Below, piece after piece: positions 5,323 to 23,755 of a stretch of 24,707 bases of DNA. The notes beneath the pieces are model-generated. The model was given only the letters and a program-made list of their open reading frames with translations, searched no databases and had not been told where the DNA came from. Both the position numbers and the translations under genes were made by a program. Location of the stretch: the IMG/VR virus record IMGVR_UViG_3300009185_001801, positions 1 through 24,707 of that record; one strand, given 5' to 3'. The stretch comes from a virus. Within the stretch, counting starts at the first letter, position 1, and each line of letters starts with the position of its first letter.

Positions 5323-6164
5323 TGAAATTTTTAATTATACAGGAAAACGGTAGGCATGAAATTAGCAAACATTTGAGAGAATGCAACAGCATGCAAAGAG
5401 CTCTGATTTATAATGAAGTAGAGTGTGATGTTTGGGGTTTGGGACATGATAATTTTCAAACAATTCCAGATTATGAAAAATATGATGTTATTATTAATCT
5501 AGAAAATTATGATACTGGATGGATGCCTAATTTGGCTCATGTTAAATCTCCATTAAAATTTTTATGGGCTATAGACAGCCATTGCAAAGGACAAGACTAT
5601 TATGATATGGTTTACAGAGAAGGAAAATACAATTATATCCTACAAGCTACAAAATATTTTTGTAATAAAGATAGTCTTTGGTTTCCCAATTGTTATGATG
5701 AAGATTATTTGTTTCCTACAGATGTAGAAAAGAAGTATTTAATAGGTTTTTGTGGTAATATAGTTAATAGAGGGTCTCTGTTACAACACTTGGCTTCTAT
5801 CATGTCTTTTAAAATAGACATAGATGTCCGCGGAGAAGAGATGATTAATGCTATAAAATCATATAAGATTCATTTTAATAAAAATATTAGTGTGGATGTA
5901 AATTATAGAAATTTTGAAACCATGGGATGTGGAACTTTATTACTGACAGATCACAATGAACAATATTCAGAACTTGGATTTAAACCAGAAACTAATGTAT
6001 TTGTTTATAAAAATATAGAAGAAGCAGTTGAAATTATTAACTATTTAAAAGATAAAGAAGATGTTATTTCAGAAGTGGCGACAAAGGGTCAAGAATTTGT
6101 TAAATCTAAACACACTTTTAGGAATAGAGCAAAACATTTAATTAAATTTATTAATTCTCTGTAA
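5322..6164 (+). CDS. CgeB-like GT-B glycosyltransferase
   Basis: Protein of 280 residues resembling the CgeB / glycosyltransferase 1-like group (GT-B fold). The C-terminal nucleotide-binding half is diagnostic: YLIGFCGNIVNRGSLLQHL (139-157), then NYRNFETMGCGTLLLTD (194-210), in which the Glu is the usual donor-binding residue, and a C-terminal helix around 265-277 (HTFRNRAKHLIKF) typical of the family. The N-terminal acceptor domain is short, with a VIINLENYDTGW strand. The start is preceded by AGAGGAG at 5308-5314, seven bases from the ATG, the best SD in the island. CgeB relatives in phages and bacteria accompany surface glycan genes. The acceptor is not predictable. Confidence 0.75.
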   Translation: MKFLIIQENGRHEISKHLRECNSMQRALIYNEVECDVWGLGHDNFQTIPDYEKYDVIINLENYDTGWMPNLAHVKSPLKFLWAIDSHCKGQDYYDMVYREGKYNYILQATKYFCNKDSLWFPNCYDEDYLFPTDVEKKYLIGFCGNIVNRGSLLQHLASIMSFKIDIDVRGEEMINAIKSYKIHFNKNISVDVNYRNFETMGCGTLLLTDHNEQYSELGFKPETNVFVYKNIEEAVEIINYLKDKEDVISEVATKGQEFVKSKHTFRNRAKHLIKFINSL

Positions 6165-6165
6165 T

Positions 6166-6942
6166 ATGGAAATTAACATCAACTTTTTTGTTATTGCTTA
6201 TGATTTATTGTTAGACAAAGTTGTGCAACAATTATCAGAAGATGAACTTAATAAGTTAACCAGTTATACTGTACAAAAACGGATTCCAAAGCAAATAAGT
6301 GCAAAGATAAATAACAGAATTAATGAATGGAAATTGCCGTGGAATGATTACTTTTATCAAACTAATCAGTGTTATGAGTATGGAGCTATGGTTCATTTAT
6401 TTAAAAACAAAGAATTAATAGAAAATTTGACACATATAGGAATACTTCACTATGATGTTATTTTTAATAAAAACTCAATTAATAATATTCTTTTAGAATT
6501 GACAAAAAATCCAGATACTATTTTTTATCAAATGATAAGACCGAGAGAACAGCTTTCTTTATCAAAATATGAGGTGTTTAAGTTGTGTGAATTTATGGAA
6601 GAAAGAATGGATATAATGATAGACGGGTCCATTGCGTGGAATGATGGCTGGATAAGTGAAGCACTGAGTTTAACACCTAAATATATTTTTGAAAAATTTG
6701 CTCTTTTCCTGTATAAACATCATTTAGAAATTAAAGACATCTTAAAAACTAATAGATGGAATATCATGGATCATTGTCCACATCGCATGTGTGGAATTTT
6801 GGAAAGAATGTGGGGTTTTTATCTGGTATCACGTGACTTACCACTAAGGCAACTAGATATTATACATGACTGGGATTCTTACCAACATAAACACATGGAA
6901 ACTAATGGTTCCGGAGCTTCTACTTTATGTCACTTCATATAA
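6166..6942 (+). CDS. Putative DUF4422-like glycosyltransferase
   Basis: Protein of 258 residues. Two blocks suggest the DUF4422 exopolysaccharide glycosyltransferase group: an aromatic block YEYGAMVHLFKN (70-81) followed by strand HIGILHYDVIF (about 91-101), and the late block DHCPHRMCGILERMWGFYL (202-220), which corresponds to the conserved His...ER-W segment of that family. The HYD in the strand is the likely counterpart of the DxD site. One base separates it from the upstream stop, and no SD is visible. The last 16 bases overlap the next gene. It is probably cytoplasmic, with substrates unknown. The match rests on short patterns, so family membership is moderately supported. Confidence 0.55.
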   Translation: MEININFFVIAYDLLLDKVVQQLSEDELNKLTSYTVQKRIPKQISAKINNRINEWKLPWNDYFYQTNQCYEYGAMVHLFKNKELIENLTHIGILHYDVIFNKNSINNILLELTKNPDTIFYQMIRPREQLSLSKYEVFKLCEFMEERMDIMIDGSIAWNDGWISEALSLTPKYIFEKFALFLYKHHLEIKDILKTNRWNIMDHCPHRMCGILERMWGFYLVSRDLPLRQLDIIHDWDSYQHKHMETNGSGASTLCHFI

Positions 6943-7715
6943 ACAATATTTTAAATGCAGCTAATTATGAAGATATTTGTGATTATTCTATTGTGCCACC
7001 TTATGGAAAATATTTTAATCCAGAAACCTTAACAAGAGATGCTACTATTTTTTGTAAAACAGATTTTATAGGATATCTTTTTAATAACATTAAAGACTCT
7101 AAACAAAAATACAATTTAATTACTCATCACAGTGACTATCCCATTGATGAATCTCGTTGGAATTTAAAACCTTCTTGTATTAAGAAATGGTTTGCTATAA
7201 ATCCAACAGTAGAACATTCAGATCTCATTGCCATACCATTAGGTCTTAAAACTCATAAAGGTGATTATCTAGAATCTAAATATATGACGTGTTGGTTTGC
7301 AGAAAACTTTAAGTCCTTAAAGGAAAATTTTAAATCAAATACAGTATACTGCAATTGGAATATAACTAATATAAATCGCAAAGAAATCTTAAATGTACTT
7401 AAAATCAATAAAATTAATTACATACAAGATGACAATTTACCTTTTAATGAATACATTGAAAGAATGTCTCAAAGCAAATTTGTAATTTCTCCTCCCGGAA
7501 ACGGAATAGACTGTCACCGAACTTGGGAAGCTTTATATGTTGGTTGTATTCCAATTGTGTTAAAAAATCATATCTATAAAGATTGGAATTTGCCTATCTT
7601 ACAGGTTAATGATTTTGGTGAAATAACTACAGATTTATTAAACTCTTTTGTATCAGAAAATAATTTAGAACAATTAGACATTAATTATTGGAAAACAAAA
7701 TTATGGACAAATTAA
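6927..7715 (+). CDS. Exostosin-like (GT-B) glycosyltransferase
   Basis: Protein of 262 residues. The decisive block is FVISPPGNGIDCHRTWEAL (185-203) followed by YVGCIPIVL, the donor-binding segment of exostosin-type (GT47-like) and ribitol-xylosyltransferase-like enzymes, where the His-Arg and Glu contact the nucleotide-sugar. The upstream region has an AIPLGLKTHKG strand (102-112) that commonly ends the N-terminal domain in this group. The protein is shorter than eukaryotic members and carries no membrane anchor. It overlaps the upstream gene by 16 bases; a GGAG at 6913-6916 may help initiation. The next gene starts within its last codons. Confidence 0.7.
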   Translation: MSLHINNILNAANYEDICDYSIVPPYGKYFNPETLTRDATIFCKTDFIGYLFNNIKDSKQKYNLITHHSDYPIDESRWNLKPSCIKKWFAINPTVEHSDLIAIPLGLKTHKGDYLESKYMTCWFAENFKSLKENFKSNTVYCNWNITNINRKEILNVLKINKINYIQDDNLPFNEYIERMSQSKFVISPPGNGIDCHRTWEALYVGCIPIVLKNHIYKDWNLPILQVNDFGEITTDLLNSFVSENNLEQLDINYWKTKLWTN

Positions 7716-8800
7716 AAGTATTAGTGTTGGGAAGTTGTAATTTACAACAATTTCCTTTAATTGATTACGGTGGCATAGAATCTTCTGTGGAGCATCTTTG
7801 TTCTGGATTGAATACCTATTTTAAAGATGAAATAACTTTTAATGTAATAGTCCCTAAAATTTTAGAAAACAATCATTTAACAAGTCAATATAATTTTAAT
7901 ATTATAGAAACTAATTATGTGGGATGCAGCAACTCAGGAATACATCCTATTAATTTTGCTCTAGAAGCTAGAGAAATAATTCAATCTTCTTCCTCTAAGC
8001 CAGATATAATTTGGGCTCAAGGAGATTGGTCTGCAAAAGGTCTTTATGATTTAGGTATACCTATAATTTCAACTATTCAAGATAGTGGTCCGTGGGTTGA
8101 AGGAAAGTACATTTTTCATAAAAATGTTTATTATAGATTTGTATCAAAATTTTTATATGATTTGGTTTTAGAAGACTCTGAAAAAAGAGAAGATGTAAGA
8201 AATATTAAATTAAAAAGTTTCTGGGCTCATACTGGATTAGATGATTCTGAATTTATCTTTGAACCTTGCAAAGAAAATTACATACTCTGGGTAGCTGGTT
8301 TACATTGGGGAATTGAAGGAAAGGGATTAGATGTCTTTATAGAATTGGCAAAGCAATTACCAGAAGAAAATTTTATAGCCTATGGAACGGGTAATGAAGA
8401 TGTTGCTAATTACCTGAAAAAAGTAGCCACAGAATTACCAAATTTAGAATTTAGAGGCAAATTAATGAGAGGAGAAGAGCATAAAAATGCATTTAAGAAT
8501 GCAAAATTTTTTGTAATGTTCACCAGGATTCCAGAAGCTTTCGGAAGAACCAATATAGAAGCTCTTTCCAAAGGTACACCGGTTTTGGGATCTTTGTATG
8601 GTTCAGTACCAGAATTAATATCTGATAAAAATGCTGGAATTAGTTCAAATAGCTTAGAAGATTTGATTAAAGTTATTAAAGACAATAAAATAGATCATAA
8701 AAAATGTTATGACTATGCTCTTAAAAATTTTCATGTAAAACAAGAAATAGAATTCTTGATTAAAAAATCCAAACAAATATTAAACTATGAGAGTATTTAA
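7703..8800 (+). CDS. GT4-like (GT-B) glycosyltransferase
   Basis: Predicted retaining glycosyltransferase of 365 residues. The N-terminal domain has KVLVLGSCNL then GGIESSVEHL (23-32), the usual acceptor-side glycine loop of family 4. The C-terminal domain has WVAGLHWGIEGKGLDVFIELA and the EX7E motif EAFGRTNIE (278-286), followed by KGTPVLGS and SVPELI, all standard for family 4 donor binding. I chose the ATG at 7703 over an in-frame TTG at 7688 because it gives the usual few residues before strand 1. Either start lies inside the upstream gene. The last 14 bases overlap the methyltransferase gene. This is the clearest and largest enzyme of the island. Confidence 0.85.
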   Translation: MDKLKVLVLGSCNLQQFPLIDYGGIESSVEHLCSGLNTYFKDEITFNVIVPKILENNHLTSQYNFNIIETNYVGCSNSGIHPINFALEAREIIQSSSSKPDIIWAQGDWSAKGLYDLGIPIISTIQDSGPWVEGKYIFHKNVYYRFVSKFLYDLVLEDSEKREDVRNIKLKSFWAHTGLDDSEFIFEPCKENYILWVAGLHWGIEGKGLDVFIELAKQLPEENFIAYGTGNEDVANYLKKVATELPNLEFRGKLMRGEEHKNAFKNAKFFVMFTRIPEAFGRTNIEALSKGTPVLGSLYGSVPELISDKNAGISSNSLEDLIKVIKDNKIDHKKCYDYALKNFHVKQEIEFLIKKSKQILNYESI

Positions 8801-9326
8801 AACTAGAAATGATTTATTAGATAAACTTCCTAAAAATTTAAAAATAGCCGAATTAGGAGTTTTTAAGGGAGAATTTGCTCAAGAAATTTATAGAAGAATG
8901 ATTCCTAGGGAATTAAATTTAGTGGATATCTGGTTGGGAGAATTTGGTTCTGGTGATAAAGACGGAAATAATCACACAGTTGTTAGTAACATGGAGGAGG
9001 TGTTTTTTAATCTTAGAGACACTTATAAATTTTTTAGCAATGTAAATGTAATACGAAGTGATACAGAAAATTTTTTAAATTCATGTGCGGATAATTCTTA
9101 TGATATGATTTATGTGGATGCGGATCATTCCTATGAAGCAGTCTCTAGAGATTTAGAACTATCATTCTTGAAAATTAAAAATTCTGGAATTTTATCAGGA
9201 CACGATTATATTAAGAATACTCAAATAGAGGCTGCTGTTAATAATTTCTGTCATCAATATAAACAAGATATTGTAGCAATAACCGAAGATGGTTGTCCTA
9301 CTTTTGTTATACAAGTAACTAAATAA
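8787..9326 (+). CDS. SAM-dependent methyltransferase (Methyltransf_24 type)
   Basis: Class I methyltransferase of 179 residues. The SAM-binding loop is AELGVFKGEF (21-30) and the acidic residue after strand 2 is D47. YDMIYVDADHSYEAVSRDLE (105-124) then GHDY (138-141) are the hallmark metal- and SAM-site motifs of the group that includes macrocin O-methyltransferase-like enzymes and many sugar-modifying enzymes next to glycosyltransferases. It may cap or methylate a sugar built by the neighbouring genes; the substrate is inferred from context only. The start overlaps the upstream gene by 14 bases without an SD. The next gene begins directly after its stop (TAAATG). Confidence 0.8.
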   Translation: MRVFKTRNDLLDKLPKNLKIAELGVFKGEFAQEIYRRMIPRELNLVDIWLGEFGSGDKDGNNHTVVSNMEEVFFNLRDTYKFFSNVNVIRSDTENFLNSCADNSYDMIYVDADHSYEAVSRDLELSFLKIKNSGILSGHDYIKNTQIEAAVNNFCHQYKQDIVAITEDGCPTFVIQVTK

Positions 9327-10274
9327 ATGAAAAATATTTTATTCCATTCTAATCAACTTTGTATCAGAGGTACAGAAGTGGCTATGTATGACTATGCTCA
9401 TTATAATGAAACATTGTTAAATAATAAATCCTATATTGTTTCCAGAAAAGACAGTGACTTAGGAGCTCTTAAAAAATTTGAAGATAGATTTGAAGTATTT
9501 TTATATAATGACTTTGAAGAAATAGAAGATATTATTAAAGACAAAAAAATAGATTATACCTATTTAACAAAAGCTGGAGATATAGATGGCAGAGTCTCTA
9601 AAAGTTCTAAAAATTTAATACATGCAGTATTTCAGCATTATAATCCACACGGAGACAAATATGTTTACATATCAAAATGGCTATCTCAAAAAATGGCCAA
9701 TAATCCTAATAACTATATTCCTTATATAGTAACATTACCCGAACCTCAAAAAAATGATCTGCGTAAAAAATTAAACATACCCGAAGAAGCCACTATTATT
9801 GGAAGACATGGAGGATTTGAAGAATTTAACATAGGATTGGCTATACAGGCTGTATATGACGTAGTAAATAAAAGAGAAGACATTTATTTTGTTTTTATGA
9901 ATACTCGAGAATTTTGTAAACATAAACAAATTTTTTTTATTAACCCCACTTACAATCTTCAAAACAAATCCAATTATATTAACATGTGTGATGGTATGAT
10001 TCATGCTAGACAATTTGGTGAATCTTTTGGATTGGCTATTGCAGAATTTTTATTTTTAAACAAACCAGTAATAAGCTGTAGACAAGGAATAGACTCTGCA
10101 CATTTAGATATGTTAGGAGATAAGGGTTTATGGTACTCTACCCATCAAGAGTGTTTTGATATTTTATTAAATTTTGACAGACAATATCATAAAGCTATAA
10201 ATTACAAAGAATTAGTTTTAGAATTTACTCCAGAAAATGTAATGAAACGATTTAATAATTTGTTCTTATCGTAG
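9327..10274 (+). CDS. GT-B glycosyltransferase (family 4-like)
   Basis: Protein of 315 residues. The N-terminus has the strand ILFHSNQ followed by RGTEVAMYDYAHYNE (14-28), a form of the family 4 glycine loop that I associate with viral glycosyltransferases. The middle strand ATIIGRHGGFEEFN (155-168) begins the nucleotide-binding domain, and the EX7E motif lies in GESFGLAIAE (231-240), followed by FLNKPVIS. It is the last gene of the island: its stop is followed by a 44-base gap with a promoter-like sequence before gp46. It starts directly at the upstream stop (TAAATG) and has no SD. Confidence 0.8.
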   Translation: MKNILFHSNQLCIRGTEVAMYDYAHYNETLLNNKSYIVSRKDSDLGALKKFEDRFEVFLYNDFEEIEDIIKDKKIDYTYLTKAGDIDGRVSKSSKNLIHAVFQHYNPHGDKYVYISKWLSQKMANNPNNYIPYIVTLPEPQKNDLRKKLNIPEEATIIGRHGGFEEFNIGLAIQAVYDVVNKREDIYFVFMNTREFCKHKQIFFINPTYNLQNKSNYINMCDGMIHARQFGESFGLAIAEFLFLNKPVISCRQGIDSAHLDMLGDKGLWYSTHQECFDILLNFDRQYHKAINYKELVLEFTPENVMKRFNNLFLS

Positions 10275-10318: not shown

Positions 10319-12136
10319 GTGAAGCGAGTAATTTTTAAATCTGTAAAAATACAAAATTTTCTCTCTGTAGGAGAAACACCTCTAACATTAAATTTTCAAA
10401 GTGGTATCTCTATTATAACTGGAGAAAATAGAGACAAAGGAGGGAGGAATGGTGTAGGTAAAAGCACTATTGTAGAATCTTTATATTGGTGTCTGTTTGG
10501 TAACACCATGAGAGAAATTAAAAGAGAGAGAATAGTTCATAGACAGTCAGATGGCAATTGTTGTGTGGTGTTAGAATTTGATGTAGTCTCATCAAATAAA
10601 GTAAATGTATACACTTTAATAAGAACTATTTCTCCCAATTCTGTAAAACTGTACTGCAATGAAGAGGATATTACTCTCTCCTCAATGCCCAAGACGGATG
10701 AAAGGGTTAAAGAACTCATTGGAGCTAATGAAGAAGTGTTTCGTAACGCAGTCATTATGGCTGCTAATAACACCTTACCTTTCATGGCTCAAAAGAAAGT
10801 AGATAAGAGAAAATTTGTAGAAGGCATATTACAGTTAGGTATTTTTAGTGAAATGCTTTTACAGATCCGGCTGGATCATAATGATTTAAAAAAGGAAAAT
10901 GATCTCTGTAGTACAAAATTTATAGAAAAACAGAAAAATTTAGAAATTTACAATAAACAATTTCAAAAAACAGAAAATGTTAAAATTGAAAAAATAGATA
11001 ATTTAAAAACCAAAATATCTATAAATAAAGAAAAAATAGAAACTGAATCTAAATTAGATTTAAATGCTTTGGAACAAGAAAAAAATGACTTGTTAAATTC
11101 AATTTCTAAAAAAGAACAAAAAATTAAAAAATTAGAAGAATTATCTTTAGATTGTTCTGGATCATCAGACTTTCTGAAAAAACAAGAAAATTTGTCTTCA
11201 TTTAAAATTGCTCAATTAAAAAAAGAATTAGAGGCATTAAAAGAAAAAACTCAAACATGTCCTACCTGTAAGAGATCTTATGAAGACCATGATAAAAAAC
11301 ACATAGAAGAATTGTGTAATGATATTGATGTAAAAATTAAAACAGAAGAAGAATCTAAAAAATTATTAACAGCAGATATTAAGCAAAAAAATAAAGATTG
11401 CAAAGATATAGTAGAAGCAATCAAAACATTAAACACACAAATTAAAAAAGATTCAGACAGTATACATAATTTTTCTATAATTTCTAAAGAAATCAAACAC
11501 TTAACAGACATAAACAATTCTCTTCAAAAAGAAATTGAAGAAATTCAAAATTCTAAAAATGAATTTGAAAGTTTGATATCAAATATTAAAGAAGAAATTG
11601 CAGAACAAGAAACTAAATTGGAAGATTTACAAAAAAAAATTTCAGTTCTAGAGGTGGCAAAGTATGTAGTATCAGAAGAAGGAGTGAAGACCTACATTAT
11701 CAAGAAAATGTTAGTCATTCTCAATTCTAGATTAAATCATTATTTACAAATTTTAGAAGCTCCGTGTAAATGTGAATTCAATGAAGTGTTTGAAGAGACT
11801 ATTCATGATGAGTATGGAAAAGAAAGTTCTTATTTTAACTATAGTGCCGGAGAACAAAAACGAATAGATCTGGCAATTCTTTTTATGTTTCAGGATTTGT
11901 TAAGACAACAAACTGGCACCTCTTTTTCTTTGAGTATGTATGATGAATTATTTGATTCTGCTATAGACGAGAAAGGTGTAGATAAAATTTTAGACATTTT
12001 AAAAGATAGAGTTGAAAAATTTCAAGAAAACATTTATATTATCTCACACAACACTCATACCTCTAAATCAGGTGTGGATCAGATTATTCTTTTAGAAAAA
12101 CACAACGGAGAAACAAAATTAATTGAACAAATTTAA
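10319..12136 (+). CDS. 46: gp46-like recombination endonuclease subunit (Rad50/SbcC family)
   Basis: ATPase subunit of the gp46-gp47 complex, 605 residues (T4 gp46 is about 560). Order of parts: N-terminal strand VKIQNFLSVGE; Walker A in GGRNGVGKST (41-50), preceded by an ENRDK insertion also known in marine T4-like phages; Q-loop region near 158; Lys/Glu-rich coiled coil from about 185 to 300; zinc hook CPTC (314-317); returning coiled coil to about 450; ABC signature SAGEQKR (509-515); Walker B SMYDELFD with D542-E543; and SHNTH near 577. The start is GTG: a stop (TAG at 10304-10306) lies five codons upstream and no ATG intervenes. An AGGA at 10305-10308 may act as a weak SD. An A9 run lies in the second coiled coil. 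Confidence 0.93.
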   Translation: MKRVIFKSVKIQNFLSVGETPLTLNFQSGISIITGENRDKGGRNGVGKSTIVESLYWCLFGNTMREIKRERIVHRQSDGNCCVVLEFDVVSSNKVNVYTLIRTISPNSVKLYCNEEDITLSSMPKTDERVKELIGANEEVFRNAVIMAANNTLPFMAQKKVDKRKFVEGILQLGIFSEMLLQIRLDHNDLKKENDLCSTKFIEKQKNLEIYNKQFQKTENVKIEKIDNLKTKISINKEKIETESKLDLNALEQEKNDLLNSISKKEQKIKKLEELSLDCSGSSDFLKKQENLSSFKIAQLKKELEALKEKTQTCPTCKRSYEDHDKKHIEELCNDIDVKIKTEEESKKLLTADIKQKNKDCKDIVEAIKTLNTQIKKDSDSIHNFSIISKEIKHLTDINNSLQKEIEEIQNSKNEFESLISNIKEEIAEQETKLEDLQKKISVLEVAKYVVSEEGVKTYIIKKMLVILNSRLNHYLQILEAPCKCEFNEVFEETIHDEYGKESSYFNYSAGEQKRIDLAILFMFQDLLRQQTGTSFSLSMYDELFDSAIDEKGVDKILDILKDRVEKFQENIYIISHNTHTSKSGVDQIILLEKHNGETKLIEQI

Positions 12137-12140
12137 TATT

Positions 12141-12893
12141 ATGACAGAAAACAATTACCTATTGATTAGTGATGATGGTCCTGGATTTCACACCATTGAA
12201 GGAGAAGGCCGATTAATCGGAAAACCTAGTATCTTCTTGCGTTTATTTGGATGTAATTTAACCTGTAAAGGTTGGGCTACTCCTGATTCTCCTTGGGGAT
12301 GTGATTCTTTTATCTCATGGTCCAAGAAAAACAAATGGACATTTGAAGATATCTTTAAATTTTATGAAGAAAATGGTCTTGTTGAGAAGCTTTTAAGAGG
12401 AGATATATGGAAATTGACTGGCGGAGAACCTTTCTTACGCCAAGAACCACTATTAGATTTTGTAGAAGAATTTGTCTGTCGTTATAAGCAAATTCCAACT
12501 ATTGATTTTGAAACCAACGGCACCATTAAACCTAATGATACTTGGTATGATACCTACGAAGCATCCTTTACAGTATCACCGAAGTTATCTAGTAATGGAG
12601 ATCCAAAAGAAAGAAGGTATCAACCAGAAGTTTTAGATTGGCATGCTAAACACAATTCTTGTTTTAAGTTTGTAGTTAATTCTAAAGAAGACATGGATGA
12701 ATTGTTTGAAAATTACATTAATTCTAAAGAATTTTATATTCATCCAAGCAATGTATGGCTTATGGTATGTGCGGGTTCTCGAAAAGAACATGTAGAGAGA
12801 GCAGCATATGTAGCAGAGTTAGCCAAGGAACATGGTTTTAATTTTTCACCAAGACTTCAGTTAGTAATTTGGGATAAAGCTCTTCGTGTATAA
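12141..12893 (+). CDS. queE: QueE-like radical SAM enzyme (7-carboxy-7-deazaguanine synthase)
   Basis: Predicted 4Fe-4S radical SAM enzyme that turns 6-carboxytetrahydropterin into 7-carboxy-7-deazaguanine, the third step towards preQ0. Its 251 residues fit the family. Motifs: FHTIEGEG (16-23), RLFGCNLTC (34-42), third cysteine at C54, GGEP (94-97) for SAM binding, FETNGT (123-128) and SPK near 152. The cluster cysteines are spaced C-x3-C-x11-C, with an insertion between the second and third relative to the usual radical SAM CX3CX2C. Start: an in-frame TTG at 12123 lies inside gp46; the ATG at 12141, four bases after the gp46 stop, is more likely, though it has no SD. It should act with the QueD-like and TGT-like genes further on. 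Confidence 0.82.
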   Translation: MTENNYLLISDDGPGFHTIEGEGRLIGKPSIFLRLFGCNLTCKGWATPDSPWGCDSFISWSKKNKWTFEDIFKFYEENGLVEKLLRGDIWKLTGGEPFLRQEPLLDFVEEFVCRYKQIPTIDFETNGTIKPNDTWYDTYEASFTVSPKLSSNGDPKERRYQPEVLDWHAKHNSCFKFVVNSKEDMDELFENYINSKEFYIHPSNVWLMVCAGSRKEHVERAAYVAELAKEHGFNFSPRLQLVIWDKALRV

Positions 12894-12925: not shown

Positions 12926-14236
12926 ATGGCTTTAAAAATTAAAAATCAAAACAACAATATATCTAAAGATTCTATTGTTTATCAGTATAATATAGTAGAA
13001 GGTAGAATCCCTAATCTACCAGTTGGTGCTTTGGCGGAATTTTTACCAGTATATCGTTATATACTGTTGACACCCATTCATGTACCAGCAGCTCCCGCAG
13101 TAGAAATGCCAGAAGCATCTACACCCAGAGCTTTGAATTATTACGCAGATTATGGTGGTTGCGGGTTTTGGAGAATGGTTTGGCCAGAAGTTGCATTAAA
13201 TGCGTATCAAAAGGCAAGTATTTCTGGACTAACTAGTATGGTTTTGGATATGAGATTCTATCACGGTATAAAATCTATCAGATTTCAAAGACAAGCCACT
13301 CCTATTCAAGAACAATTCATAGCAGAACTGAAGAAAGCTCAGAAAGATATGGGTTATCGCATGTTATATGAGGTAGATGATATTGTTTTCAGACACGATA
13401 TTCCAGATTACAATAGATGCAAAGAGGCCTTTGCTACTAAAGAAACAGAAGACACAATTTTGCGTATTCTTGGGCACATGGATGAGATGACAGTTACTTG
13501 TCAATTCATGAAAGATTATTATATTGAGAAGACTGGACTTAAAAATATTACAGTCATACCCAACTATGCTCCAAAATCTTGGCTAGGTAGATTTTATAAT
13601 CCAGAAAGAATTGCCAGATTGTATGATCAACATAAAAAGAGACCAAGGGTTTTGTATTCTGGGTCTGGAACTCATGTTGATATGATCAATAAAACCAATT
13701 TCAAGGATGATTTTGAACATGTTGTTCAAGAAATTATTAAAGCTCGTAAGAAATTTAAATTTGTGTGGAAAGGTACCTATCCACTAGCAGTTAAACCATT
13801 TATTGATAATGGTGAAATGGAATTTTTGGGATGGACACCTTTGTTTGAATTGCCACAAGCTCAATATGATGCTGGTTGTAATGTAACCTTTGCTTCACTT
13901 CAAGATAATATCTTCAACAAATCAAAGAGTAATATTAAAATGATTGAATCTGGGGCAATAGGCATGCCTGGAGCATTTCAAGATCTGTGTACCTATGCAG
14001 ATGCCGAGGTAAAATTCAAAAGTGGAACAGATTTAATTAACCAATTAGAATATATTACATCAGATGTAGATAGATATATGAAATTGTCTAGTAATTTGTA
14101 TCAATTTACAGACAAATTGTGGTTAGAGGATCATTTAGATTGTTATGAAGCCGTTTATTTTACTCCTTGGGGTAGTAAAGAACGACAACTCAAGTCTCCA
14201 GAGCTCATAAGACTCAATCCAGATCAAAAATTGTAG
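12926..14236 (+). CDS. GT-B glycosyltransferase next to the polymerase gene
   Basis: Protein of 436 residues. The core resembles GT-B enzymes found in marine T4-like phages: NYYADYGGCGFWRMVWP (71-87), MLYEVDDIVF near 159-168, TVIPNY, a VLYSGSGTHVDM strand that begins the nucleotide-binding domain, FVWKGTYP, and SNIKMIESGAIGMP (about 335-348) with the donor-binding Glu. No membrane segment was seen. Its base composition looks like the core genes around it rather than the AT-richer island upstream, so it may have been part of the replication region for longer. It lies between a QueE-like gene and gp43. Modification of DNA bases is possible but unproven; a virion or cell-surface acceptor is the alternative. 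There is no SD; TATATATT (12915-12922) lies just before the ATG. Confidence 0.72.
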   Translation: MALKIKNQNNNISKDSIVYQYNIVEGRIPNLPVGALAEFLPVYRYILLTPIHVPAAPAVEMPEASTPRALNYYADYGGCGFWRMVWPEVALNAYQKASISGLTSMVLDMRFYHGIKSIRFQRQATPIQEQFIAELKKAQKDMGYRMLYEVDDIVFRHDIPDYNRCKEAFATKETEDTILRILGHMDEMTVTCQFMKDYYIEKTGLKNITVIPNYAPKSWLGRFYNPERIARLYDQHKKRPRVLYSGSGTHVDMINKTNFKDDFEHVVQEIIKARKKFKFVWKGTYPLAVKPFIDNGEMEFLGWTPLFELPQAQYDAGCNVTFASLQDNIFNKSKSNIKMIESGAIGMPGAFQDLCTYADAEVKFKSGTDLINQLEYITSDVDRYMKLSSNLYQFTDKLWLEDHLDCYEAVYFTPWGSKERQLKSPELIRLNPDQKL

Positions 14237-14279: not shown

Positions 14280-16850
14280 ATGTATCGAAATGTCTTTTAT
14301 GATTCTGCCAGACAAAGCATCCATTTATGGACTTGGGATGAAAGTGGTAAGAGAATCAAGTTAGAAACCAGCTACGAACCATATCTTTATGTAGAATCCG
14401 CATCCGGAACCGATGCGGTTTCTATTTTTAATACACCTTTGAAGAAAATTAAGTTCAAAAACCAGTTTGATCGTAATCGTTTTGTTAATGAAACACCAAT
14501 TAAGCGCTTATTTCATAATTTAAGTTGCGAACAAGACTTTCTTTTGACTACTTTCAAGGATGAATTACACAAATCTGAAGCGCTGCAGCGCTTTTTGAAG
14601 GTCTTTTGGCTGGATATTGAGACGTATAGTCCAGATAGAATGCCGGATCCACACAATCCAGAGGACCCAATCAATCTAATCACCCTATGTGATTCACTTT
14701 CCAACCATTATTACTCGTGGGGTACGGGTCCTTACAAACCAAAAGACAGCAATGTTACCTATGTTCAGTGTAAAAGTGAGCGGGATCTATTGCAAAAGTT
14801 CCTAAATTTTTGGTCATCAGACCATCCAGATGTGTTAGCTACCTGGAATGGAGAGGGATTTGATGTTCCTTACATCATGAATCGCCTCGGAAACCTTCTT
14901 GGAGAAGAGGAAACAAGCAGAATGTCTCCGGTCAATTCCATTTACTATAGGGAAAATGTGGCAATGAATAAGTTCGGGAAGATGATTAATAGATGGTACA
15001 TCCGAGGAGTTAGCAACATTGATTATATGGAAGTGTATAAGACATTTTCCCGTGGGGATAGAGAATCTTATTCATTGAATTACATCGGAGAACATGAATT
15101 AGGTGAAGGGAAAACAGATGTAGGTGGTCAAAATCTTGCGAGTTTAGCTGATGAAAATTGGGAATTGTTTGTGGATTACAACATTCAGGACGTTAAATTG
15201 CTAGTTAAATTAGATGAAAAACTTAAATTTATTAAATTGATTAGAGCTCTTTCCTATAAAGGATTCATCCCATTTGAACAATCATTGGGTAAAGTGTCTA
15301 TGATCACAGGAGCAGTGGCTCATCAAGCAGTAATACAGGGTTATAGAATTCCTACCTTCAAGAATGATGGCTTGAGAGATGAATATGTAGGTGGATATGT
15401 GCACGAACCAGAAAGAGGTTTAAGTAACGCCGTAGTCAGTTATGATGCAAACAGTTTGTATCCTAATACAATTATCACATTAAACATCTCTCCGGAGACT
15501 AAAGTTGGTCGCATACTAGAAGTAATTGATGGAGAATATACTATTAGACTGGCTAATGAGAAGACTATAACCATTGATAAAGAAAAATTTGCTAGACTTT
15601 GTCAAAAAGAACAATTAGCGGTGTCAAAGTATAATGTCCTTTATACCCAGAAATTCAAAGGTGTTGTACCTAATTTGATTGATAGGGTTTATGGAGAGCG
15701 TGTTTCTACACGAGCAATGGTATCCAAATTAATGGATCAAGCTAGTGAAACAATAGACCAGAAAATTAAAACAGATCTAGAAGCAGAGATATTAAATTTA
15801 GATACGATTCAAAATGTATTAAAATTAATCTTAAATTCTATCTATGGAGTATTTGCACAGAAGTATTCTCCGTTGTTTGACATTGATCATTCAGCAAGTA
15901 TTACATTAACAGGTCAGGCAGTAGCTAAACAGGCATCAGAAATTGCCTATCAATTTGCAAAAGACAAGGGTGTAACAGAAGATAAGAAGAAAATATACAT
16001 TTACGGAGATACAGACAGTTGTTATTTTAGTATAGCTCCAATTTTATCTAAGTTAAATGCCAAACTCTTAATAGACAACAAGCTTACTAACGAAGCTCGA
16101 AATGTTTTGAAGGAGATTGATGTCTATCTCAATACAAAAATTATTGATTGGGCTGAAATAGAGCTACAATCAATAGATCCTCGCTTCGTATTTAAACAAG
16201 AAGCCGTATGTGATGTAGCATTCTTCCAAGAAAAAAAGAGATACATCCTGCATGTTATAGAACAAGAAGGTAAAATTCCTAAGAAACCATTCAAATATGT
16301 AGGAGTAGAAGTAGCAAGATCGACAATCTCTAAGCCAGTTAAGAATTTAATCATGCGAGTGATTGAAAATGCAATGTTGGCTCAAGATAAAAAGAAAGCA
16401 GATGAAATCTTTCGCAAGGCTTATGATGAATTTTGTACTTTTAAAATAGAAGATGCTTCGATTCGCAGTAAAATTTCAGATTATGAAAAGTATGAAGCCA
16501 GAATTGGAGAGATGGGTCAGGTCGGAAAAGGTACTCCTATAGGACCTAAGGCTGGTATCAGTTATAATTCTTTGCTTAAAAAATTAAAATTAGAACACAA
16601 GTATGAACCAATTGGTAGTGGAAGAAAGATCAAATACTTCTATACTTCTCGTAACAATTACAATTATAAAGTCATGGGATTTAATGAAAGTTATCCTCCA
16701 GAACTAAAAGAAGTAGTTGGATTGAATTATCAATTTATGTTTGAAAAAATACTTGCACCTCCTATCCAACGGTTTTATGATGGTGTAGGTTGGATATTGC
16801 CAACTCCGGGCAGAGAAGTACAGACAGATTTATTTGACCTTTTCCAATAA
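14280..16850 (+). CDS. 43: Family B DNA polymerase (gp43-like)
   Basis: Replicative polymerase with proofreading exonuclease, 856 residues (T4 gp43 has 898). Exo I is FWLDIET with D112 and E114; Exo II is WNGEGFD with N190 and D195; Exo III is YNIQD with D304. Polymerase motif A is DANSLYPN (389-396), motif B is KLILNSIYG (515-523) and motif C is YGDTDS (575-580), followed by EKKRYIL. All catalytic residues are present, so it should be active in both functions. The C-terminus ends in QTDLFDLFQ, a short hydrophobic-acidic tail like the clamp-binding tail of T4 gp43. Codon positions are visibly richer in G and C at the 5' end than in the island. The start has an AGG just before the ATG and no clear SD. 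Confidence 0.97.
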   Translation: MYRNVFYDSARQSIHLWTWDESGKRIKLETSYEPYLYVESASGTDAVSIFNTPLKKIKFKNQFDRNRFVNETPIKRLFHNLSCEQDFLLTTFKDELHKSEALQRFLKVFWLDIETYSPDRMPDPHNPEDPINLITLCDSLSNHYYSWGTGPYKPKDSNVTYVQCKSERDLLQKFLNFWSSDHPDVLATWNGEGFDVPYIMNRLGNLLGEEETSRMSPVNSIYYRENVAMNKFGKMINRWYIRGVSNIDYMEVYKTFSRGDRESYSLNYIGEHELGEGKTDVGGQNLASLADENWELFVDYNIQDVKLLVKLDEKLKFIKLIRALSYKGFIPFEQSLGKVSMITGAVAHQAVIQGYRIPTFKNDGLRDEYVGGYVHEPERGLSNAVVSYDANSLYPNTIITLNISPETKVGRILEVIDGEYTIRLANEKTITIDKEKFARLCQKEQLAVSKYNVLYTQKFKGVVPNLIDRVYGERVSTRAMVSKLMDQASETIDQKIKTDLEAEILNLDTIQNVLKLILNSIYGVFAQKYSPLFDIDHSASITLTGQAVAKQASEIAYQFAKDKGVTEDKKKIYIYGDTDSCYFSIAPILSKLNAKLLIDNKLTNEARNVLKEIDVYLNTKIIDWAEIELQSIDPRFVFKQEAVCDVAFFQEKKRYILHVIEQEGKIPKKPFKYVGVEVARSTISKPVKNLIMRVIENAMLAQDKKKADEIFRKAYDEFCTFKIEDASIRSKISDYEKYEARIGEMGQVGKGTPIGPKAGISYNSLLKKLKLEHKYEPIGSGRKIKYFYTSRNNYNYKVMGFNESYPPELKEVVGLNYQFMFEKILAPPIQRFYDGVGWILPTPGREVQTDLFDLFQ
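14398..14418. repeat. Inverted repeat inside the polymerase gene
   Basis: CCGCATC (14398-14404) and GATGCGG (14412-14418) are perfect complements around a seven-base loop, inside codons about 40-46 of gp43. It could fold in RNA near the 5' end of the coding region, but coding constraint may also explain it. Confidence 0.4.
14578..14593. repeat. 16-base perfect palindrome in the polymerase gene
   Basis: AAGCGCTGCAGCGCTT reads the same on both strands and is unusually GC-rich in this AT-rich phage. It lies in gp43, between the N-terminal domain and Exo I. It may be a binding site, a cruciform or simple chance; only its presence is certain. Confidence 0.5.
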
Positions 16851-16861
16851 CAATTATTTTT

Positions 16862-17710
16862 ATGAAAAAACCTTTAATAGCACATGAAGCTCCTTATATG
16901 ATTATGAGAGAGGTACAACAAATGACAGACTATGATTACTGTCTCGTACATCTCTTGGAAGAAGATCCCAAATACCTAGAATACTTTAGAGAAGCTAAAG
17001 AAAAGGGACGATACATCATTATGGATTGTAGCTTGTTTGAACTTGGACATGCGTTTAATCCGGAATTGTATTATAATTGGATTAAAGAAATTCAGCCAGA
17101 TGAATACATTGTTCCTGATGTATGGCAAGATTATGAAGACAATCTAAGATCGTTCAAAGCATTTTCAGAATTATTTGACCTTACTAAATTAAAGGGCAAA
17201 CGCATAGGTGTCTTACAAGGAAGAACCTATAGAGAATTTATAAACGCCTATCAATTTATGGAAAAAGAATGTGATAAGATTGCTGTAAGTTTTGGGTATG
17301 ATTATTTTTGGGATAAACATTCAGAAGATTGGAAAGATAATCCTTACTGGAAAGATACAGAATATACACTAGAGTTTGAAAAAACAGTAGCCAAACCAAC
17401 CTCATATGCTAGTGGAAGAAATCATTTGATAAAAAGTTTAATCTCCAGTGGAGTGTGGAATAAAAACAAACCACATCATTTATTGGGTTGTGGTATTCCT
17501 ACAGAATTTGAAACACATTTTGAAGGAGTGGAAAGCATTGATACATCTCATCCAGTTATGACCGGATTTTTCGGTAAATCTTATAAAAATATAGAATCCA
17601 CTTACAGCAAAATTCATAACAAGATGGTGGATGTATATGATGCAGAGGTTGACCTTATTCAAAGAATCTTAATTAAAGAAAATATAGAACTTTTTTCCAC
17701 ACTACTATGA
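16862..17710 (+). CDS. tRNA-guanine transglycosylase-like protein (candidate DpdA-type base exchanger)
   Basis: Protein of 282 residues with the pattern of the TGT superfamily, which swaps guanine for a 7-deazaguanine. Comparison by eye with archaeal TGT: YIIMDCSLFELG (51-62) matches the D-S-G-S-F active-site loop (D55); VPDVWQDYEDNL (84-95) matches the DIPT...A..DL segment; GVLQGRTYREFINAY (116-130) matches the AVQGSTYPDLR segment; LLGCGIP (207-213) matches the LFGAGHP loop; and SIDTSHPVMTG (225-235) matches the DLFDS/FDCVMPT segment, with D227 as the likely nucleophile. The C-terminal zinc-binding Cys set of tRNA-type enzymes is absent, as is an RNA-binding PUA domain. That, plus QueE- and QueD-like genes nearby, suggests a DpdA-like DNA enzyme. 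It overlaps thyX by four bases (ATGA). Confidence 0.72.
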   Translation: MKKPLIAHEAPYMIMREVQQMTDYDYCLVHLLEEDPKYLEYFREAKEKGRYIIMDCSLFELGHAFNPELYYNWIKEIQPDEYIVPDVWQDYEDNLRSFKAFSELFDLTKLKGKRIGVLQGRTYREFINAYQFMEKECDKIAVSFGYDYFWDKHSEDWKDNPYWKDTEYTLEFEKTVAKPTSYASGRNHLIKSLISSGVWNKNKPHHLLGCGIPTEFETHFEGVESIDTSHPVMTGFFGKSYKNIESTYSKIHNKMVDVYDAEVDLIQRILIKENIELFSTLL

Positions 17711-18468
17711 AAGTAACCCTACAAGCAATAACCCAGCCATTGGTTCGCACCGAAGATAATTTACGATTCTTAACTGCTGAAGAATTTATCGTGTATTGTG
17801 CTCGTGTATCCAATCCTGACAACCAATTAAATTTAGATACAGCTCCAAAGTTGTTAAAATATTGCATAGATCATGAACATTGGTCTATCTTTGAACAATG
17901 TTCGGTGACATTTGAAATCCAAACTAGCAGAGATATCTCTGCTCAAATTATTAGACACAAAAGTTTTGCCTTTCAAGAATTTAGCCAAAGATATAGCCCA
18001 GCGTTCGGATTAGAATCATTTGATGTTCGCAAACAAGCTGATAAAAATAGACAATCTAGTACAGAAATTTTAGACTTGGAGCCACAAGAAAATGAAAGAA
18101 TACGTAAACATTTGCTAGATAGTGTAGAATTATATACCTGGATGTTAGAAAAGGGGGCAGCAAGAGAAAGTGCTCGAAAGGTACTTCCTTTATGTACCCA
18201 GACGGTCTTGTATATGACCGGTTCTGTAAGGTCATGGATTCATTATATTTTGTTGAGAACCAAACCAGATACTCAACAAGAACATCGAGAAATTGCAGAA
18301 AAAATTAAAGAAATTTTCTTTGATATGTTTCCATTTATTGCTGCAGCATTGACTCCAGTAGATGTAGAGGCAATAGAAAATTTAACAGAAGAGATTAAAA
18401 AAACACACGAAGAAAACTTTAAAGTAAAACAAACAAAAATTAAAAAACAAAAAGTTGAAAACCAGTAA
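17707..18468 (+). CDS. thyX: Flavin-dependent thymidylate synthase
   Basis: Makes dTMP from dUMP using methylene-tetrahydrofolate and FAD. It has 253 residues. The family signature RHKSFAFQEFSQRYS (83-97) fits the ThyX motif RHR-x7-8-S-x-RY except for R-to-K at the third position. HEHWSIFEQ (56-64) and the second-half block ARESARKVLP (151-160) with SVRSWIHYILLR (173-184) supply the remaining flavin and dUMP contacts. The Lys-rich tail (about 225-253) extends beyond the usual core. The start overlaps the TGT-like stop (ATGA), so the two are probably co-translated. ThyX is common in phages and supports dTTP supply during replication. Confidence 0.93.
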   Translation: MKVTLQAITQPLVRTEDNLRFLTAEEFIVYCARVSNPDNQLNLDTAPKLLKYCIDHEHWSIFEQCSVTFEIQTSRDISAQIIRHKSFAFQEFSQRYSPAFGLESFDVRKQADKNRQSSTEILDLEPQENERIRKHLLDSVELYTWMLEKGAARESARKVLPLCTQTVLYMTGSVRSWIHYILLRTKPDTQQEHREIAEKIKEIFFDMFPFIAAALTPVDVEAIENLTEEIKKTHEENFKVKQTKIKKQKVENQ

Positions 18469-18493: not shown

Positions 18494-18877
18494 ATGAGTG
18501 AAACCAACAACAACATCACAGTGTTCCTCGATTTCGTAGGACGCACCATCGTAGGCGAATTAATTGAAAAGACAGATTCTATTTGGAGGGTAAAAAATCC
18601 TGTAGTTTTGAATGTCGTTCCAGAAAAGGACGGTCGTTTGTCTATTCAGCTCTTTCCTACATTCTTTAAGGAATTTTTGGCAGATAAGTCAGAGCCAGTA
18701 ATTTTTGATTATCATGTAGGTCAAATTACACCAACCAGTATTTCTGCTTTGGATTTCCGTTTGCAAGCACAATACTTGCAAATGTTTAATCCATCTAATG
18801 TCTTGGTACCACCTCAAGGACAGCCCACTCCTCAGCAACAGGGCAATTCTCCAGTAATCAATTTATTTGAAGAATAA
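18494..18877 (+). CDS. Conserved small protein before uvsX, possible Sm-like barrel
   Basis: Protein of 127 residues, not firmly recognised. The first 70 residues look all-beta: ITVFLDFVGRTIVGELIE, then IWRVKNPVVLNVVPE, then RLSIQLFPTFFKEFL. The V-K-N-P-V-x-L segment with alternating hydrophobics suggests an Sm-like or small barrel fold, and similar short genes occur next to uvsX in T4-like cyanophages as I recall them. The C-terminal 30 residues are Pro/Gln-rich and disordered, ending in the acidic hydrophobic tail INLFEE, reminiscent of peptides that bind replication partners. The stop is one base before the uvsX ATG. No SD is present. A role with UvsX or in RNA binding is conjecture. Confidence 0.7.
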   Translation: MSETNNNITVFLDFVGRTIVGELIEKTDSIWRVKNPVVLNVVPEKDGRLSIQLFPTFFKEFLADKSEPVIFDYHVGQITPTSISALDFRLQAQYLQMFNPSNVLVPPQGQPTPQQQGNSPVINLFEE

Positions 18878-20015: not shown

Positions 20016-20471
20016 ATGAGCATTTTATTAGAAAAAAGTCAATTTGAATCCACCAAAGTAATTGAATTGGGTAGCTGCGCATTTAGACAATGGAAAGCAA
20101 ATTCTCATTGTAAATTTATTCATGGCTATCAATTAAAAGCTAAGCTTTGGTTTGGCTGTAAGGAGCTGGATGACAAGAATTGGTCTGTAGATTTTGGAGG
20201 ATTGAAAGATCTTAAAAAAATTCTACAAGAACAATTTGATCACACTCTTTGCATAGATTCTGCAGATCCTCTGCTGCCAATATTCAAGACCATTCATGAT
20301 ACAGGTGGGTGTGATCTTCGTATCATGGAAGGAGTTGGTATTGAGAAAACTGCAGAATGGTGTTTTAAGGTCTCTAATAAATTTATTCGAGATCTTACAC
20401 ATGATCGTTGTTGGGTAAACAAAGTAGAAGTGTGGGAACATGCAGAGAATTCTGCAATTTATTCTGAGTAA
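20016..20471 (+). CDS. QueD-like 6-pyruvoyl/6-carboxytetrahydropterin synthase family protein
   Basis: Protein of 151 residues of the PTPS/QueD fold, which makes 6-carboxytetrahydropterin, the substrate of QueE. Matches: FRQWKANSHCKFIHGY (23-38), corresponding to the F-x-AAH...C..HGH region; NWSVDFGGLKDL (55-66), corresponding to the DF..LK segment; FDHTLC (74-79), corresponding to the catalytic D-H; and VEVWEHAENSAIY (137-149), corresponding to the late Glu segment. Catalytic C32 is kept and H36 is kept, but the first zinc His (AAH) reads Q-W-K and the second His of HGH is Y38. The family also contains a proteobacterial subgroup with this altered pattern, so the change is probably real. It has an SD-like GGAAGAG at 20003-20009. 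A strong hairpin follows the stop. Confidence 0.72.
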   Translation: MSILLEKSQFESTKVIELGSCAFRQWKANSHCKFIHGYQLKAKLWFGCKELDDKNWSVDFGGLKDLKKILQEQFDHTLCIDSADPLLPIFKTIHDTGGCDLRIMEGVGIEKTAEWCFKVSNKFIRDLTHDRCWVNKVEVWEHAENSAIYSE

Positions 20472-21918: not shown

Positions 21919-22840
21919 GTTAATGGTTAGTATGGGAGATATGAATTGCATCAATGCATATACTCACAATGATTTAGATGGAGCTGTAAGTTTACTTGCA
22001 TTGATGTGGGCTCTCCCAGGATCCTGCATAACCTATCAAGCCATCAATAATATGGAGATGGACAAACTTAAAAATGGGGTACAAAGTGTTAATAATCCTT
22101 CTAAAACTTTTATCTTAGATCTGGCTTTGAGAGAAGAATTCTTACCGGAGACTGATTTGGATCATGTGACGTTTATAGATCATCATGAGACTTCTTTAAA
22201 TTTTATTCCTCGATTTAAGAAGGCTAAAATTATTCATAAAGAAATTACCTCTAATGCTCTTTTGATGGCTCAAATTTTTAAAGGAGATAAATTTCCGATC
22301 AGAACAGATGCTCAAAAAACACTCATCGCTCTGGCTGATGATTATGATTGTTATAGATTAAACATTCAGGAATCTTATGATTTAAATTTATTGTTTTGGT
22401 CTGAATATAAAAATAATTTTTCTAAATTTATCAAAGATTACTATGATGGATTTAAACCATTTACCAATGCTCAGAAAAAACACATAGCATTTTTAAAACA
22501 ATCAGCTAGGGAAGATGCTTCTAAATTGCCGGTGTATGAAGGATATGTAAATTTTGGATCCAAGAAAAAGAAAGTCATAGCTGCTATGGGAGAAAAGTTT
22601 ACTAGTGGTCTTTTAGATGTCATTGCTCAAACATACAAGCCAGACATTCTGTTTTTTATCAATTCTAAATCTGAAAAGATCTGTATCAGGCAACATACCT
22701 TTGAAGATCCGATAGATGTTGGAAATTTTGCTGAAAAAATTTGTGAAGGGGGAGGTCATCGACACGCTGGTGGTGGTAAAATCACCCCTTTGTTTATGGA
22801 AGTGACAAAGAATTTATCCCCACTAAATAGCAAGTTATGA
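21911..22840 (+). CDS. DHH family phosphoesterase
   Basis: Predicted nuclease or nucleotide phosphoesterase of 309 residues related to RecJ and NrnA. Metal-binding motifs: THNDLDG (18-24), FILDLAL (67-73), FIDHHET (88-94) and ALADDYDCY (140-148). The C-terminal DHHA1 domain has GGGHRHAGGGK (280-290), which binds the substrate. The likely role is degradation of short oligonucleotides or 5' ends. It occupies the place that RNase H (rnh) has in T4, ahead of the 33-59-32 group, so primer removal is a reasonable guess. It overlaps gp41 by eight bases and the next gene by four (ATGA). Several Met codons occur near the start (1, 5, 8, 11), so the exact N-terminus is uncertain. Confidence 0.85.
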   Translation: MNELMVSMGDMNCINAYTHNDLDGAVSLLALMWALPGSCITYQAINNMEMDKLKNGVQSVNNPSKTFILDLALREEFLPETDLDHVTFIDHHETSLNFIPRFKKAKIIHKEITSNALLMAQIFKGDKFPIRTDAQKTLIALADDYDCYRLNIQESYDLNLLFWSEYKNNFSKFIKDYYDGFKPFTNAQKKHIAFLKQSAREDASKLPVYEGYVNFGSKKKKVIAAMGEKFTSGLLDVIAQTYKPDILFFINSKSEKICIRQHTFEDPIDVGNFAEKICEGGGHRHAGGGKITPLFMEVTKNLSPLNSKL

Positions 22841-23148
22841 TCATCACTTCTTCTCAACAAATCGAAGAGCTATTAAGACCTCAAGATGCTACAGATCTTG
22901 CTGAATTTGAAGATATTGTTTTAAAATTTGGCTCTTTTGTTTGTATTGCCAAAAATAAAAAATTAAATCACCTTGCTTTCCTCAAACATTTAGTGGATGA
23001 TAAGAAGACACAAAAAATACTTTTTGAGTTGCTCGGAGATTACAATTTGCAAAATATAATTAAAACATATTTAAGTTTAACTCCGAACATTTATAAGAAA
23101 ATATTTAGATTTAAACAAAATGCACGAAAAGGAACAGAAGATCTATAA
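22837..23148 (+). CDS. Unrecognised small helical protein in the position of T4 gene 33
   Basis: Protein of 103 residues, predominantly helical and Lys-rich at the C-terminus (ends KGTEDL). No family was recognised. It starts inside the DHH gene (ATGA) and its last 29 bases overlap the next gene. In T4 the order is rnh-dsbA-33-59-32; here DHH, this gene, a 211-codon gene and gp32 occur in the same order. The length is near that of T4 gp33 (112 residues), a late-transcription co-activator, but the clamp-binding tail (LDFLL-like) of gp33 is not visible. Treat equivalence as a guess. Confidence 0.7.
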   Translation: MIITSSQQIEELLRPQDATDLAEFEDIVLKFGSFVCIAKNKKLNHLAFLKHLVDDKKTQKILFELLGDYNLQNIIKTYLSLTPNIYKKIFRFKQNARKGTEDL

Positions 23149-23755
23149 CACCTTTTTAAAATATTCTCGCTTTGGACAAGCTTGGAAACCGCGTCAAAAT
23201 TTTGAGGACATTCCTCTAGAAACCTCGACTCTATTAGTCAGGCTTCATCAGTTTTTTGAAAAATTCAAACACATTAGAATAGATGAATTTTTTGCTGCTA
23301 CTAGACATTTGCATCCAGAAGAAAGCTATCCTCCATTAAAATTTTTTATCTCACGAGTAGCAATTAAAAATTATACACTATTCTTGAAGCAACAAGAAAA
23401 TCAATCTCCAGATAATCAGATCGAATTTATCAAATCCAGTTTTTCTCATATAGCCAATTTTTGTATTGATAATCGTCTCTGTTTAGATGATTATATAGAA
23501 CAACGAGAAGACTTATGTCCAGTGTGGATAAATGACTATCGTCAACACCTCATTAGCATTTATAGTATAATGGAATTAGGACCAGATCTTAGTAAATATA
23601 ATCAAGAAGACCTTGATGTATGGGTGCCTAATTTAGTAGATAATTTTTCTACTTTTAAATACCGATATCACAATTCTTCCCAAACCAAAAACCTAGTAAA
23701 ACAAGCAACCAACAAAATACGCAATTTAATCAACCAAACATTGACTAAACCCTAA
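23120..23755 (+). CDS. Unrecognised helical protein in the position of T4 gene 59
   Basis: Protein of 211 residues, helical, with aromatic-rich segments such as YPPLKFFISRVAIKNYTLFL (70-89) and DYRQHLISIYSIMEL (about 149-163). No catalytic motif was seen. T4 gp59, the helicase loader, has 217 residues and also lies directly before gene 32, so this could be a diverged loader for the gp41 helicase; sequence likeness to gp59 is not evident to me. The gene starts 29 bases inside the previous gene and ends 29 bases before gp32. A promoter-like sequence for gp32 overlaps its 3' end. Confidence 0.75.
   Translation: MHEKEQKIYNTFLKYSRFGQAWKPRQNFEDIPLETSTLLVRLHQFFEKFKHIRIDEFFAATRHLHPEESYPPLKFFISRVAIKNYTLFLKQQENQSPDNQIEFIKSSFSHIANFCIDNRLCLDDYIEQREDLCPVWINDYRQHLISIYSIMELGPDLSKYNQEDLDVWVPNLVDNFSTFKYRYHNSSQTKNLVKQATNKIRNLINQTLTKP

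Follow-up and report, generated by a model that had tools for sequence, protein, structure and literature searches.

A compact phage protein with a predicted tRNA-guanine transglycosylase fold is very probably a 7-deazaguanine transglycosylase

Genes at the locus

The window, that is, the whole stretch of DNA analysed here, is a virus record of 24.7 kb. Its replication region encodes a 282-residue protein, flanked directly by a DNA polymerase gene and a thymidylate synthase gene, and two enzymes of preQ0 synthesis are encoded on the same strand. The genes on which this work centres are as follows.

12123..12893, plus strand: QueE-like radical SAM enzyme (7-carboxy-7-deazaguanine synthase); phrog_2076, E 1.3e-46; TIGR03963, E 5.5e-14, below the cut-off of that model
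14280..16850, plus strand: family B DNA polymerase, directly upstream of the transglycosylase gene; phrog_262, E 3e-178; replication context
16862..17710, plus strand: putative TGT-fold 7-deazaguanine transglycosylase (DpdA-like, phrog_19058); 282 aa, ATG start
17707..18468, plus strand: ThyX thymidylate synthase, directly downstream of the transglycosylase gene; TIGR02170, over the cut-off; nucleotide metabolism context
20016..20471, plus strand: QueD-like 6-carboxytetrahydropterin synthase; PF01242, E 1.1e-15; phrog_2389, E 3e-34

The open reading frame at 16862-17710 was recovered exactly as the first-pass annotation had given it, strand and length included, and its 3′ end overlaps thyX by 4 nt. 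When it is compared with three near-identical metagenome copies, the differences at codon positions 3/1/2 number 22/3/1, 19/1/0 and 19/1/0, so that third positions hold 19-22 of the 20-26 differences. Because the differences are concentrated at third codon positions, 16862-17710 is a real gene under purifying selection. A longer contig from a sister phage (G001, 131.5 kb; via L009) is 94% identical to the window over 11.4 kb.

Several other features of the window were recorded. About twelve consecutive same-strand genes at 255-10274 include several glycosyltransferases (GT2, GT1, GT47-like and Glyco_trans_1_2) and a Methyltransf_24 protein, a sugar cluster that is unusually large for a phage contig. 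Between the QueE and DNA polymerase genes, at 12926-14236, lies a 436-aa glycosyltransferase of phrog_7162, which could decorate either DNA or a surface. The family libraries searched offered nothing convincing for three open reading frames of the replication region (18494-18877, 22837-23148 and 23120-23755). Few genes of the window are preceded by a Shine-Dalgarno-like sequence, and its GC content is 31%; both are compatible with a host from the Bacteroidota. Relatives of the phage infect Flavobacterium and Chryseobacterium.

Family and relatives

The 282-aa protein is matched over residues 5-264 by phrog_19058 (E 2.6e-35), a family listed with unknown function. A two-motif scan returned 351 related IMG/VR loci, while relatives in cellular genomes were confined to one contig among 84,980; hence, this is a phage family. 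The mixed alignment A2 proved too heterogeneous to serve for pattern scanning, an IMG/VR scan with the Youna2 protein gave no relatives, and a plasmid search produced one short match, which was set aside. Annotated relatives comprise gp64 of Flavobacterium phage vB_FspM_immuto (hereafter immuto), proteins of Campylobacter phages CP220, CPt10 and others, and those of Youna2, the Bacillus BSTP phages and Chryseobacterium phage MA9V-3. The CP220 and CPt10 proteins match at E 9e-33 and 7e-33, respectively. In the family tree, the 282-aa protein falls in a subclade separate from both immuto and CP220 (support 99/86). A classical TGT (PF01702) was not found in six related phages, CP220 among them.

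Predicted fold

From an input alignment of 65 sequences, AlphaFold2 predicts an eight-stranded barrel for the 282-aa protein (mean pLDDT 96.4, pTM 0.92), with strands at residues 5-7, 25-28, 52-55, 81-83, 113-117, 139-143, 205-208 and 223-227. The model is a (beta/alpha)8 barrel of the type found in the TGT superfamily. A Foldseek search of the PDB with this model gave 177 matches at E <0.001, the best at E 1.2e-7, and the best 50 of the 177 are all tRNA-guanine transglycosylases; VIA-align superposes the model on TGT with a Z of 17.4 and an rmsd of 3.0 over 229 residues. Among viral models (BFVD), the matches include proteins of Cellulophaga phage phiST, DpdA2 of Vibrio phage nt-1 (R9TGF0, E 1.3e-4) and several phage queuine transferases.

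This relationship was visible to the fold search alone. Pfam returned no family for the protein up to E 1, PF01702 included; the PDB yielded no TGT at significance, whether searched with the single sequence or with a profile, and sequence-profile comparisons with TGT, DpdA1 and DpdA2 did not reach significance.

The protein had been described at first pass as a compact relative of TGT that lacks the zinc and PUA parts of the tRNA enzymes, and both absences were borne out. The C-x-C-x2-C zinc site of tRNA TGT is absent, and no Cys-x-Cys occurs in 68 of 69 family sequences, the 282-aa protein included. Neither a PUA nor another C-terminal tRNA-binding domain is present: all 282 residues lie within the barrel domain, and the model ends where the barrel does. 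As to the line-up with archaeal TGT proposed in the same annotation, the key residues do align with TGT, but the closest solved folds among the matches listed are bacterial enzymes (Z. mobilis and T. maritima).

Conserved residues of catalytic type

Conservation was counted in a set of 69 sequences, cut at 80% identity. The invariant positions are D55, D86, G120, D138, R186, H206, L208 and G209; Q119 is kept in 99%, and D227 is present in all but one member, which is cut by the end of its contig. In alignment A3, which holds some 65 diverged relatives, D55, D86, Q119, G120, D138, R186 and the HLLG segment at 206-209 are likewise invariant and D227 nearly so. The positions that matter for the comparison with TGT are all on the plus strand.

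17024..17026, plus strand: D55 codon, last residue of strand 3; aligned to D89 of E. coli TGT, the general acid/base position
17117..17119, plus strand: D86 codon, just past strand 4; invariant; putative base-binding Asp position, judged from strand order
17216..17221, plus strand: Q119-G120, just past strand 5; aligned to the TGT residues QG
17294..17413, plus strand: residues 145-184, a stretch of 40 residues in this subclade versus 20 in most of the family
17477..17488, plus strand: HLLG 206-209, strand 7; aligned to the TGT segment YLMG
17540..17542, plus strand: D227 codon, last residue of strand 8; aligned to D264 of E. coli TGT, the nucleophile

The equivalences come from a profile alignment to 31 TGTs that is itself weak (hhalign P 0.0099), taken together with the order of the strands, and they should be read as probable. 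In it, D55 falls on E. coli D89 of DSGGFQ and the QG on the QG of GIIQG. The same alignment places KPHHLLGCGIPTEF on KPRYLMGVGKPEDL; the strand before D227 lies on the strand before D264, with a common proline four residues on. D102 and D280 of the Z. mobilis enzyme are the equivalents of E. coli D89 and D264, and the base-binding Asp of TGT, whose position D86 would take, is E. coli D143. A weak profile match to Salmonella DpdA (7ui4, E 0.27) also sets D227 on the Asp of SIDS.

D55 ends strand 3 and D227 ends strand 8, the two places that the catalytic aspartates of TGT occupy; both residues are found at the C-terminal ends of their strands in one predicted barrel, which is compatible with the common pocket that had been anticipated for them from the sequence. 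D55, the QG at 119-120 and the HLLG loop were also found as first described.

Linkage to preQ0 synthesis and the expected base

QueC, QueD, QueE, FolE or QueF is encoded within the fetched flank of 56 of the 64 representative family loci, and preQ0-pathway genes are present in every annotated relative inspected. QueE and QueD are encoded in the window itself, while the sister contig adds QueC and a glutamine amidotransferase (GATase).

L190:8360-9169, minus strand: QueC of the sister phage, with the glutamine amidotransferase gene immediately after it
L190:7720-8358, minus strand: class II glutamine amidotransferase of the sister phage (starts MCG), a separate gene beside QueC

The same pairing of QueC with a separate MCG-type amidotransferase recurs in three further contigs of this subclade (G034, G038 and G035). 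In immuto, a formyltransferase gene (L002:15942-16469) adjoins the transglycosylase gene, and homologues of it occur in 41 of the 64 family loci; it is a candidate for the enzyme that makes formylated preQ1. An end product of the preQ1 or formyl-preQ1 kind, likely in immuto, was dropped for the present lineage, QueF (PF14489) and the formyltransferase (PF00551), companions of most family members, not having been found on the sister contig. FolE was not found there either, on a contig that may be incomplete.

Since QueC and a class II glutamine amidotransferase are encoded by separate, paired genes in the sister phage, the base in this lineage is probably preQ0 or its amide or amidine. In phage 9g, Gat and QueC are fused and give 2′-deoxyarchaeosine, dG+ (PMC6884629), whereas in the sister phage they are split into two genes. 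Given the product of the fused enzyme, dG+ appears the most likely final base here as well.

Reaction and substrate

We conclude that the 282-aa protein very probably serves the phage as a 7-deazaguanine transglycosylase. The first-pass view of it as a TGT-like minimal base exchanger is supported by the confident model, the TGT matches, the conserved residues and the linkage to preQ0 genes. In the proposed mechanism, D227 would be the nucleophile that attacks a guanine nucleotide at C1′, with D55 as the general acid/base; guanine would be expelled and a 7-deazaguanine from the phage's own QueD/QueE/QueC route installed. The modified base would end up in phage DNA, where it may guard against restriction. 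In CP220 and CPt10, 100% of dG is replaced by dADG (7-amido-7-deazaguanine) (PMC8306585). Because homologues occur in these phages with fully replaced dG, and CP220 is without a classical TGT, the product of the transglycosylase most probably goes into phage DNA and not into tRNA.

As for the level at which the exchange occurs, it is likely, in our judgement, that this single-domain enzyme would put 7-deazaguanine into phage DNA by acting on polymerised DNA after replication, like other DpdA proteins. The absence of any nucleic-acid-binding extension from the barrel is a point against exchange on DNA, and the neighbours found in the family, a thymidylate-kinase-like enzyme and a MazG-like pyrophosphohydrolase, are no less well suited to a reaction at the nucleotide level.

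Such a reaction, in which the same exchange takes place on free deoxynucleotides (for example dGMP), a thymidylate-kinase-like enzyme then phosphorylates the product to modified dGTP for the polymerase to incorporate and pyrophosphohydrolases would deplete dGTP, is unlikely overall, though a serious candidate. It would account both for the complete G replacement in CP220 and for the lack of DNA-binding parts. A thymidylate-kinase-like gene (phrog_2107) is present in 46 of the 64 family loci, at most 2 kb away in 45 and always on the same strand; in CP220, it lies directly downstream of the transglycosylase gene, with an HD/AAA_33 protein encoded upstream. In the distant members Youna2 (phrog_761), BSTP12 and MA9V-3, the gene immediately upstream encodes a different, P-loop kinase-like protein, and a MazG-like gene is nearby in 23 of the 64 loci, mostly just upstream. 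Around DpdA1 the picture is reversed: a kinase is found at 0 of 12 loci and a DnaN clamp at 10 of 12, compared with DnaN at 0 of 64 family loci (Fisher p 3e-6, a value that overstates independence, the DpdA1 loci coming mostly from related phages). Hutinet 2019 also cites an earlier suggestion that the Campylobacter phages follow a modified-dGTP route (PMC6884629).

However, this case is one of gene neighbourhood, and large phages often carry kinases of this sort; the kinase profile also matched NadR of nt-1. No kinase was found in the window, while the sister phage has two elsewhere, one of them about 2.5 kb from QueC. Moreover, all characterised TGT-fold enzymes act, to our knowledge, on polymers, and Cui et al. 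reportedly concluded in 2023 that insertion is post-replicative. The gene neighbours are thus circumstantial support for a nucleotide-level step, and they are insufficient to displace exchange at the DNA level. In our estimation, it is doubtful that the family exchanges the base at the level of free deoxyguanosine nucleotides and supplies modified dGTP for replication together with the thymidylate-kinase-like enzyme encoded next to it, aided in some phages by a hydrolase of the MazG or HD type. If true, it would account for complete G replacement, the genome of the window lineage could have its G replaced by deoxyarchaeosine, and the protein would be the first TGT-fold enzyme known to us to work at the monomer level.

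Action on host or phage tRNAs, as an aid to translation, is improbable. The fold is that of TGT and tRNA enzymes are the best structural matches, and it has been suggested that phages can boost Q precursors (PMC6884629); against this, the zinc site and the PUA part are missing, the window has no tRNA genes, homologues are present in phages whose DNA is fully modified, the genes are linked to DNA polymerases, and QueA, QueG and QueH are reported absent from viruses (PMC6884629). Finally, a TIM-barrel enzyme that kept the TGT fold, lost base exchange and took on another activity (DNA glycosylase or nucleoside hydrolase) would suit the very weak sequence similarity to TGT and the drawing of equivalences from alignment and strand order, but it is most improbable in view of the conserved D, D, Q-G, HLLG and D at matching strand ends and the tight linkage to preQ0 synthesis.

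Comparison with known systems

The TGTs of bacteria and archaea (PF01702) have in common with the 282-aa protein the fold, the strand order and the catalytic-type residues, while the latter has no PF01702 match, zinc subdomain or PUA. The DpdA of Salmonella Montevideo (PDB 7ui4), at 436 aa, gives the weak profile match noted above; bacterial DpdA is part of a restriction-modification island (PMC6884629). DpdA2 of Vibrio phage nt-1 (464 aa) has a common fold with our protein, although the profile alignment is not convincing. DpdA1, known from Enterobacteria phage 9g and Escherichia phage CAjan, is likewise a compact TGT-type protein accompanied by preQ0 genes, and the 9g protein (317 aa) has the Asp residues of LDSGAF and CDSSSW at comparable places; however, the sequence match to 9g is not significant (hhalign P 0.077-0.23), and DpdA1 loci have DnaN next door and no kinase.

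The apparent counterpart is DpdA3, reportedly described by Cui et al. in 2023 as a subfamily of phage DNA transglycosylases that allows complete replacement of G. Proteins of the CP220/CPt10 type, which we take to be the published DpdA3, are the enzymes of fully G-replaced phages, and the 282-aa protein is homologous to them; judged by sequence, it apparently belongs to that subfamily. It differs from them in its separate subclade, in the longer 145-184 stretch and in its PolB and ThyX neighbours. Also unlike CP220/CPt10 DpdA3, it has neither QueF nor a formyltransferase nearby, and its sister phage has QueC with a separate GATase. The immuto relative, gp64 (264 aa, annotated as DpdA), is 39.6% identical over 97% and sits in a QueD/QueE/FolE/QueF cluster; since immuto adds QueF and a formyltransferase, its final base is expected to differ from that of the window lineage. 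Compactness is therefore already known, both from the 317-aa DpdA1 of 9g and from this 264-aa relative labelled DpdA.

In Hutinet 2019, the Campylobacter phages are listed as having preQ0 genes but no DpdA (PMC6884629). The homologues in Campylobacter phages fill that gap, and this is consistent with DpdA3 having reportedly been defined by Cui et al. for phages of this kind. Taken together, our results describe a distinct subclade within a known kind of phage enzyme, and they tie phrog_19058, a family of about 350 IMG/VR loci that had been left unannotated, to the TGT fold and, in all probability, to 7-deazaguanine modification of DNA. What is new is the contrast with DpdA1 in the neighbouring gene, a kinase in the one and the DnaN sliding clamp in the other, which poses a specific question: whether the exchange takes place on DNA or within the nucleotide pool.
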